Part shown: in pieces, positions 11,344 through 13,620 of the stretch
Layout of the letters: each line of letters begins with the position of its first letter
Numbering within the stretch: the stretch's first letter is position 1
IMG/VR virus record: IMGVR_UViG_3300047376_000198
Span: 1 to 23,264 of that record
DNA length: 23,264 nucleotides
Reading direction: 5' to 3' (one strand)
Source of the DNA: a virus
Made by a program: the position numbers and the translations under genes
The notes under the pieces: model-generated
What the model saw: the letters and a program-made list of their open reading frames with translations, nothing else
What the model was told of the DNA's origin: nothing
Databases searched by the model: none

Positions 11344-12510
11344 TTAATATACATAGTATTGTCCCCTGTGTGCGTTATTTAACGTATCTGTTAATACATA
11401 CCTAAATGCATCTATGCAGTCAGGATGTTCTCCTGTTGGCTTTGGTAGCGTGTTACCATCTTTGTCTTTTGCCCATACATATCCTTGTAGTTCTCGTTTT
11501 AGATTCCTGCTTCTGCTCGTAACGTATATTTCGTTTTGGTTTATTAGGTTGATTCCAAAGTTTACACTATCCCTACCTTTTGTACAAGGGTAGATATTAT
11601 GCCCATCCCTTCTAAGCGTTTCTATGGACTTCGGTTCAGCTTGGTCAGCTATTATGTTGTCTTTTATATTATTGTGCCTTAGAAACAAGCTAACATCCCT
11701 TAGAACCGTATTAGACTTATAGAATACTTCATCAGCTATGTAGGATTCGTTCCATTTGTATAATCCTATGATTGTGGTAGGGTCTGTATATCCAAAGTCC
11801 ATACCATATGCTAATAGCCTTGCTTCGTTTGGTACTGTATCTATTTCTTTCCAATCTGGAATACATACACCTTCTAAAGAACCAGTTTCCCCTAAACCGT
11901 AAACCCTCCACCAATTAGACCAATAGGTAGATGTCTTTGCCTTATCTCTTGCTTTCTCTATTTCCTTTATTATGGTTTCAGGTAATGCATCGTTGTCTTT
12001 ATAGGTAAGTGTAATGTAGTCTGTATCTTCTTTACCTATTAGTTCCTTGTCCACCCAAAACAAACTTGATGGGTTGTAGTCTAACCATATTGTCCCTGAT
12101 GTTCTAACTGCTAATTGTGTGTAAGCATCAAAGGGTACGTTATTACATTCGTTAATATATAGGTCTGTACGTCTTGCACCTCTTAGTTTTAACGGTTGGT
12201 CAGTTGAGAAGAACTCTATGTAGCTTCCATTTGTAAAGGTGTACTTTAACGTGCTTTTATTGTATTGTGCATCTTCATACCTATTAAGACCCTTTAAGAT
12301 GCCTAAGAAGTCCTTTAAAGCACCTCTACGAAGGTGTGGTATGCTTTCAGATACTACGCTAATCTCTTTGCCTTCGTTTTTAATGGCATAGTCTATTAGC
12401 AAACAAAGTATTGATATAGTCTTAGAAGCTGAGGTGCCACCCTTAATTATTCGTATCCTACTCTGTAGCTTTCTTAGCTTGTGAAATGCAATGGTTTTCT
12501 TTACACGCAT
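11344..12510 (-). CDS. terL: Terminase large subunit
   Basis: A 388-residue packaging ATPase-nuclease that cuts concatemeric DNA and pumps it into the prohead. Walker A variant GGTSASKT at residues 24-31 (the Gly-Thr-Ser-Ala form frequent in terminase_3/PBSX-type proteins), Walker B DLYINE at 116-121 with the catalytic Glu, coupling-region TSGTIWLDYNP at 137-147. The C-terminal RNase H-like nuclease carries GMDFGYTDPT (Asp238), IIADQAEP (Asp289) and HPDCIDAFRY (Asp364/Asp367). Length is slightly short but full domain set is present. It follows the small subunit by 30 bases. Confidence 0.95.
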   Translation of the reverse strand: MRVKKTIAFHKLRKLQSRIRIIKGGTSASKTISILCLLIDYAIKNEGKEISVVSESIPHLRRGALKDFLGILKGLNRYEDAQYNKSTLKYTFTNGSYIEFFSTDQPLKLRGARRTDLYINECNNVPFDAYTQLAVRTSGTIWLDYNPSSLFWVDKELIGKEDTDYITLTYKDNDALPETIIKEIEKARDKAKTSTYWSNWWRVYGLGETGSLEGVCIPDWKEIDTVPNEARLLAYGMDFGYTDPTTIIGLYKWNESYIADEVFYKSNTVLRDVSLFLRHNNIKDNIIADQAEPKSIETLRRDGHNIYPCTKGRDSVNFGINLINQNEIYVTSRSRNLKRELQGYVWAKDKDGNTLPKPTGEHPDCIDAFRYVLTDTLNNAHRGQYYVY

Positions 12511-12540: not shown

Positions 12541-12789
12541 CTAATCCTCCATAAACAAAGGTAAGTCCTCGTTGATAGTAATGTCTTTGGTTTCTCTTGG
12601 CTTACCTGCGTAATAGTTGTAAAATAACTGGACATATTTAAAGTCTTGATTTTCTAACCCCTTCATAAGTGCCTCAAATGCCAATGGCTCTAATGGGGTA
12701 AGTCTTTCTATCAGTTGTACCTCTTCTGCTTTAGGTTTTCTACCGCCTTTATTGCCTACAGTTCCTTTATTGTTTTTTCTACCATCCAT
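12541..12789 (-). CDS. terS: Terminase small subunit (short, probable)
   Basis: An 82-residue protein starting MDGRKNNKGTVGNKGGRKPK. The Gly/Arg/Lys-rich opening followed by EEVQLIERLTPLEPLAFEAL and FKYVQLFYNYYAGKPRETKD is the usual form of short phage small terminase subunits, which bind the packaging site and recruit the large subunit. It lies immediately before terL. Its start overlaps the end of the T5orf172-domain gene upstream by 11 bases. Function assignment rests on this pattern and on position. Confidence 0.75.
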   Translation of the reverse strand: MDGRKNNKGTVGNKGGRKPKAEEVQLIERLTPLEPLAFEALMKGLENQDFKYVQLFYNYYAGKPRETKDITINEDLPLFMED

Positions 12790-13204
12790 TATTAATATAA
12801 TTTAATATATCGTACAATTCATTAATTGCTAAATTAAACCATTCTCCTTTTATACAATTCTCTTTATACTTCTTGTGTAATTGCGTCTCTATTTCAAATG
12901 CATCTTCCCTTTCACACACACATAATATCTTTAAATTAGTATTGTGTGTTTTGTAATTCTTTATTCTTTTTGCAAAATTAGTTGTATATCCAATCTTTAT
13001 TAATCCTCCTGATTCTATAAGATAAATAAAATGTGATTGTTTTTTTTCTTTTTTTACTATTTCGGACAACTGTTGTGTTGCAATGTTTTTTATAGCTTCA
13101 TTTTCAAGCAATTCTATAATAAATTTTTGACAATGTTTTTGAATGTCGTATGTTAAACCTATGCCACTTTTTCTACCTGCGTTGCGTCTTGCTCCTCCGT
13201 GCAT
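12779..13204 (-). CDS. T5orf172/GIY-YIG-like protein with terminase-small-subunit-like N-terminus
   Basis: A 141-residue protein. The first 16 residues (MHGGARRNAGRKSGIG) resemble the basic GG(A/K)...GRK opening of phage small terminase subunits. Residues ~55-135 form a T5orf172/MUG113-type domain (a GIY-YIG relative): FIYLIESGGLIKIGYTTNFA, KRIKNY, a conserved Glu in FEIETQLHKKYKE, and KGEWFNL. Sampled lines have 28/120 G+C (23%), below the structural genes. It is wedged against terS with an 11-base overlap. The likely reading is a mobile nuclease-type gene or a chimera made with a terS start. Catalysis is unproven, because several T5orf172 proteins have no shown nuclease activity. Confidence 0.75.
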   Translation of the reverse strand: MHGGARRNAGRKSGIGLTYDIQKHCQKFIIELLENEAIKNIATQQLSEIVKKEKKQSHFIYLIESGGLIKIGYTTNFAKRIKNYKTHNTNLKILCVCEREDAFEIETQLHKKYKENCIKGEWFNLAINELYDILNYINNGW

Positions 13205-13250: not shown

Positions 13251-13328
13251 CTATTCTTTGTTAAAAAACAATGCTATTAGTAAAGCTAATATTGCAGTTA
13301 AATAAAATATAGTTATTGCTTCAAACAT
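13251..13328 (-). CDS. Tiny membrane peptide (25 aa)
   Basis: A 25-residue frame (MFEAITIFYLTAILALLIAL, then FFNKE) starting 8 bases inside the end of the SET gene and ending at a TAG. It is one strongly hydrophobic helix with a charged end, the form of many real small phage membrane peptides. The overlap start and lack of stop codons support it, but such short AT-rich frames also arise by chance. Function unknown. Confidence 0.45.
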   Translation of the reverse strand: MFEAITIFYLTAILALLIALFFNKE

Positions 13329-13620
13329 CGTACAAAGTATAATATACGGTTAGTTCTTCGTTAGCCTTTATTGGTTTAATAGTATATAGGTTGCCTATCC
13401 TGCCCTTTTTTAGTATAAAGCAGTTAGGACTATCACTATGGTTTAAAAAGCCTCCTAAGGGTGTTCTAATTAGTTCTTCTAAATAGGGGTTTATTGCATC
13501 TACTTTATGGTGTGTTATTCCTAAGTCATTTCCTGCTTCTATTTTTTCTGTAGCAAAAACTCCTTGTCCGTGTATCTTGCTTTTCTTTATAGTCAGTTCT
13601 TTAGGTAGAGGTTTATACAT
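13321..13620 (-). CDS. SET-domain protein (putative lysine methyltransferase)
   Basis: A 99-residue protein with the hallmarks of a SET domain: GQGVFATEKIEAG (residues 18-30), GGFLNHSDSPNC (56-67, the NHxxxPNC SAM/active-site segment), and NEELTVYYTLY (87-97, with the ELTxxY motif and terminal Tyr). Known SET enzymes transfer methyl from S-adenosylmethionine to protein lysines. The domain is minimal: the insert between the two conserved halves is short. It overlaps the DnaA-domain gene by 8 bases at its start. The substrate is unknown; host or phage protein methylation is a guess. Confidence 0.8.
   Translation of the reverse strand: MYKPLPKELTIKKSKIHGQGVFATEKIEAGNDLGITHHKVDAINPYLEELIRTPLGGFLNHSDSPNCFILKKGRIGNLYTIKPIKANEELTVYYTLYDV

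Follow-up and report, generated by a model that had tools for sequence, protein, structure and literature searches.

SET-domain enzymes methylate proteins, mostly on lysine. The closest described viral system is vSET (A612L) of Paramecium bursaria chlorella virus 1, which trimethylates Lys27 of histone H3 of the alga and has been called the smallest histone methyltransferase (PMC7019647). In Methanosarcina mazei, Go1-SET methylates lysine in MC1-alpha, a DNA-binding protein (PMC3980110). Ternary structures of SET enzymes revealed that the peptide is bound between the I-SET and post-SET segments and that post-SET joins in cofactor binding (PMC3868588). A phage-encoded SET protein is known by annotation only, from ORF62 of Stenotrophomonas phage Ps15 (PMC9025141) and from uncultured Caudovirales entries of BFVD, and a marine bacterial genomic island carrying a SET gene has been reported (PMC10734472). 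The literature search found no paper on a compact phage SET family, and no relevant one that treats the SET domain together with cyanophages, with auxiliary metabolic genes or with lysine methylation by phages.

The DNA analysed here (the window) is a virus record of 23,264 bases. One of its minus-strand ORFs, running from an ATG start to a TGA stop, encodes the protein MYKPLPKELTIKKSKIHGQGVFATEKIEAGNDLGITHHKVDAINPYLEELIRTPLGGFLNHSDSPNCFILKKGRIGNLYTIKPIKANEELTVYYTLYDV (Table 1). The sequence contains the motifs GxG (G18-Q-G20), RTPLGGF (52-58), NHSDSPN (60-66) and E89-L-T-x-x-Y94, and only 5 residues follow Y94 to the C-terminus. The earlier note had proposed a SET domain from NHSDSPNC (residues 60-67) and EELTVYY (residues 88-94), and this was confirmed by the Pfam score, the predicted fold and the invariant SAM-site and catalytic residues. 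The Pfam SET model PF00856 matched the protein with 40.4 bits (E 4e-10; cut-off 22.4) and also matched 37 of the 37 relatives tested; the profile from 37 relatives found many solved SET methyltransferases at E of about 1e-8. The profile of PHROG 28741 (100 aa) was matched over the full length at E 3.1e-25, residues 1-99 falling on profile positions 2-98. By this match the protein is a member of the PHROG 28741 family, which is the same family in an entry carrying neither the SET label nor an assigned function, and the library entry is smaller than the family as found in the viral contig scans. Pairwise dN/dS for the gene was 0.04-0.27, so the ORF is a constrained gene under purifying selection and a chance ORF is ruled out.

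Table 1. Coordinates of the SET gene, its neighbours in the window and related loci in other contigs
Feature	Position	Strand	Evidence or remark
SET-domain protein, 99 aa	13321..13620	minus	Pfam SET, PHROG 28741, AF2 fold, dN/dS
DnaA C-terminal DNA-binding domain protein, 133 aa	13613..14014	minus	PF08299 E 2.8e-13
Hydrophobic (single-pass-like) ORF, 25 aa	13251..13328	minus	overlaps SET stop
MUG113/T5orf172 (GIY-YIG-like) ORF	12779-13204	minus	just before small-terminase ORF
ORF at small-terminase position, 82 aa	12541..12789	minus	adjoins TerL, kept in relatives; family matches weak
Terminase large subunit (TerL)	11344..12510	minus	PF04466/PF17288, phrog_2
Second T5orf172/MUG113-containing ORF, 323 aa	14164-15135	minus	
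SET in argC/proC-like operon	L102 4659-4949, L106 3768-4040, L109 7995-8285		Flavobacteriia chromosomes
SET on Pelagibacteraceae single-cell contig	L089 8001-8279 / L113 1501-1779		
SET-PF13759 fusion ORF	L072 5001-5921	plus	marine viral contig

The AF2 model of the protein (37-row alignment) showed a pLDDT of 88.8 and a pTM of 0.79. In the Foldseek search against the PDB, vSET ranked first (E 5.5e-7, TM 0.74), and MLL1 and other active SET enzymes came next, including a Plasmodium SET protein and fission-yeast Set7; 244 matches were obtained at E <= 0.001, and the 50 best were all SET/PR proteins. A SET (beta-clip) fold is thus confidently predicted for the 99-residue protein, the structure prediction having been proposed as a check by the earlier note. 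vSET is likewise a small single-domain viral SET protein and is also a full-length sequence match, with about 28% identity over the aligned part; the GxG, NHS..PN and EE-L/I-T-x-x-Y motifs are common to both, and Y94 aligns with the vSET Tyr. The two differ in length (119 aa for vSET, 99 aa here and down to 92 in the family), in agreement with the earlier view that 99 residues is the minimum size, and the window protein has far less I-SET and C-terminal tail. They differ also in setting, since vSET works as a dimer on Lys27 of histone H3 whereas the presumed bacterial hosts of the window phage are without nucleosomes. Go1-SET, likened here by description, is prokaryotic like the window protein but cellular and archaeal. 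As lysine methylation by such small viral and archaeal proteins is established, it counts for a methyltransferase. The best explanation is an accessory SAM-dependent SET protein methyltransferase, presumably of lysine, which would act on a host or core phage protein, and a probability of roughly 0.55 is given to this reading.

The TerL of the window is nearest to that of Flavobacterium psychrophilum phages (49% identity), and a host among the Flavobacteriia is therefore probable. The neighbours named beforehand, a DnaA-domain protein and an exonuclease, were both recovered (PF08299, E 3e-13; PD-(D/E)XK exonuclease). Their co-direction with SET had been taken to suggest replication-stage use; this is not supported, as all recognised window genes are on the minus strand and co-direction is uninformative. 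The DnaA-like gene lies immediately upstream, with 8 bases shared between its end and the start of SET, so the two are probably translated together.

The presence or absence of SET was scored with the DnaA-like gene as anchor, up to the small-terminase position, where the 82-aa ORF forms the right border of the optional region; TerL was the anchor for the comparison of SET-plus and SET-minus phages. Six contigs carried SET in this interval, nine were without it and one had another ORF there, counts which refer to sequences and not to events because several SET-plus and SET-minus contigs are near-copies. In the SET-minus phages the DnaA-like stop runs straight into the 25-aa hydrophobic ORF (..AAATGTTTGA..), the start of which overlaps that stop and marks the insertion point. 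In the SET-plus phages the SET ORF lies exactly between these two genes (..AAATGTATAAACC .. GATGTTTGA..), an overlap is kept at each end and ATGT is common to both edges. SET was not found elsewhere in the SET-minus contigs, which are fragments of 24-32 kb. As close relatives are without it, near-identical phages lacking just this ORF at a junction that is intact, the gene is, on the contigs compared, optional and accessory (moron-like) in this marine tailed phage of a probably flavobacterial host, rather than a component of core replication. The SET protein of one SET-plus contig (G411) is 96% identical to that of the window while the DnaA-like protein is 43% and TerL 77% identical, and these values indicate that the gene moves between phage lineages.

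Other features of the region were also noted. The 25-aa hydrophobic ORF MFEAITIFYLTAILALLIALFFNKE, lying between SET and the terminase region, is conserved whether or not a relative carries SET, MFDIWNYVGLFYLTAILVLLIALFFNKE being one of its variants, and it may be a real micro-protein. The GIY-YIG-like ORF next to the small-terminase ORF starts with a terminase-small-subunit-like stretch, MHGGARRNAGRKSG; it was present in one close relative (G699, 91%) and was not found in the other seven contigs compared, and has the look of a mobile nuclease that entered at the terminase. The second T5orf172/MUG113-containing ORF had no good match in the eight related phage contigs, and the exonuclease adjoining it is 36-57% identical in relatives whose flanking genes reach 90-99%. 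This ORF and the exonuclease are regarded, from these identities, as a second replaced segment.

The relatives of the SET protein numbered 184 in viral contigs in a single scan, and the profile-guided scan raised this to at least 593 contigs. Only six isolate or single-cell phage records matched, namely Prochlorococcus phages P-SSM7 and P-RSM6 (two each), Pelagibacter phage Kolga and Marine virus AG-345-P14, and in all six the gene is hypothetical or without annotation. Gene clustering around SET in 104 clades revealed no shared neighbour beyond related phages, and Pfam and PHROG scans of the 107 immediate neighbours revealed no common function, the matches being scattered. Among the 40 window ORFs, SET alone was present in 4 of 4 SET-plus and absent from 4 of 4 SET-minus contigs, and no co-occurring substrate gene was found in this comparison. 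These data bear on whether SET methylates a protein of the phage itself, for example a replication or virion protein, rather than a host protein. Its position between the DnaA-like gene and the terminase, overlapping the former, is in keeping with such a target, as is the packaging of vSET, the closest fold relative, in virions (PMC7019647). An own-protein target is nevertheless unlikely, even if it survives better than the other alternatives, because phages as unrelated as T4-like cyanophages, pelagiphages and flavophages carry SET and have no neighbour of it in common, bacterial chromosomes carry it outside any phage context, and no window gene co-occurs with it. This occurrence in unrelated phages and bacteria without a constant neighbour points to a widely available target. 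Because no phage gene travels with SET, the target of the proposed methyltransferase would most likely be a host protein, or a core phage protein common to all relatives. The suggestion of the earlier note that a host or virion protein might be methylated is compatible with this.

Conservation was scored with one row per clade for 104 clades at 80% identity. The residues R52, G56, F58, N60, H61, N66, E89 and Y94 were invariant, the values at 53-60 (hence N60 but neither H61 nor N66) being biased since the peptide TPLGGF[LI]N served to retrieve some of the sequences; other positions are unbiased. S14, G20 and G34 were invariant wherever the alignment covers them. The invariance of N60, H61, N66, E89, Y94 and G20 holds in viral and chromosomal members alike. 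G18 is kept in 66 of 72 viral clades, while a single viral clade departs from Y2 and a single one from H37, and some chromosomal members have Trp in place of Y2. At the YxG motif G34 is invariant and no conserved Tyr precedes it, in a region of uncertain alignment. The family signature is YxPLP...GxxGxFA...Gx[TS]H...RTPLGGFxNH...EELTxxY. Invariant SAM and catalytic residues, kept under purifying selection, argue for an enzyme.

The protein is pared down below vSET in the segments that normally form the substrate groove. The I-SET equivalent (loop H37-R52) has 7-18 residues in viral members and the tail beyond the catalytic Tyr has a median of 6 residues. The I-SET insert and post-SET segment of full-groove SET methyltransferases are thus absent save remnants in the window protein, in which the core SET features are present and the full-groove features missing. 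In known enzymes the cofactor and substrate sites are made complete by these segments (PMC3868588); their near loss here would also suit a non-catalytic SET-fold (beta-clip) module binding SAM or a peptide, for example an inhibitor or decoy. Such a module ranks next among the alternatives and is likewise improbable, since Tyr94, Asn60-His61 and Gly20 are invariant across the 104 clades and this is hard to explain without SAM chemistry. The reduction of I-SET and post-SET to remnants, the missing Tyr at the aligned position of YxG and the lack of a co-occurring substrate gene do count against the methyltransferase reading. For an active methyltransferase, the near absence of I-SET and post-SET means that the rest of the groove would have to come from the target or from another molecule of the same protein, and the mode of completion becomes the mechanistic question.

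In 84,980 species genomes 28 loci of this SET family were found, some of them phage and several chromosomal as judged by neighbours. The chromosomal gene lies directly after fabA-fabB and before an opposite-strand peroxiredoxin gene and ssb in Porticoccaceae/HTCC2207 (L091, L093, L096, L097, L105, L107, L112), between argC and a proC-like gene of an arginine-biosynthesis operon in some Flavobacteriia, and, in further Flavobacteriia, close to genes for thiolase and acyl-CoA thioesterase, all these gene names being assigned from sequence. Loci that are chromosomal by their neighbours were also found in SAR86 and Acidimicrobiales MAGs. The chromosomal distribution is patchy: when one flavobacterial family was sampled, 12 of 201 genomes had a copy (10 of the 12 strong), as had 2 of 298 genomes of an order-level sample at E <= 1e-15. 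The chromosomal groups are scattered among viral groups in the family tree, which has too few columns to resolve the direction of transfer. On a Pelagibacteraceae single-cell contig SET lies among apparently chromosomal genes and groups with viral members (SH-aLRT 95), which suggests virus-host transfer.

The arginine operon and the fabA-fabB and thiolase settings would be compatible with a substrate other than protein lysine, either a different residue or a small molecule, for instance a free amino acid, and the pocket, presumably shallow, has no obvious peptide specificity. This kind of substrate is quite improbable, as the chromosomal neighbours differ among lineages and the SET enzymes known to date act on proteins. 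Associations with 2OG-Fe(II) oxygenases were also observed: one ORF of a marine viral contig fuses the SET family to the oxygenase PF13759, and in L088 the two genes are adjacent. From this fusion and adjacency, joint action of SET and a 2OG-Fe(II) oxygenase in making one composite modification of a protein can be imagined but is highly improbable, since neighbour oxygenases (up to 6 of 107 immediate neighbours) are not clearly above their number among control genes from those contigs (2-3 of 107; Fisher p 0.28-0.50), cyanophages are in any case rich in such oxygenases, and none is among the recognised genes of the window phage.

The accessory methyltransferase, as preferred here, would work as follows. 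The protein would be made together with the overlapping DnaA-like protein, the NH motif and the GxG loop would hold SAM, and Tyr94 would stand at the mouth of a lysine channel. The groove would be completed by a second SET protein copy or by the folded target, and methylation of that target would presumably benefit the phage. A wider proposal is tentative and on the whole doubtful: lateral transfer may have given several lineages of marine phages the smallest active SET methyltransferases known (92-105 aa), with the site completed only on the folded target or as a dimer, which would methylate lysine of a bacterial host protein in infection, the family having been domesticated in marine bacterial operons.

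Hardly any work has addressed how tailed phages methylate proteins, and this SET family is common in the sea. The protein is compact, intact and easily expressed, and the natural pairs of gene-present and gene-absent phages allow a direct test of its role. Were it active, the protein would put a lower bound on the size of SET enzymes and would show how the SET core works without I-SET and post-SET.
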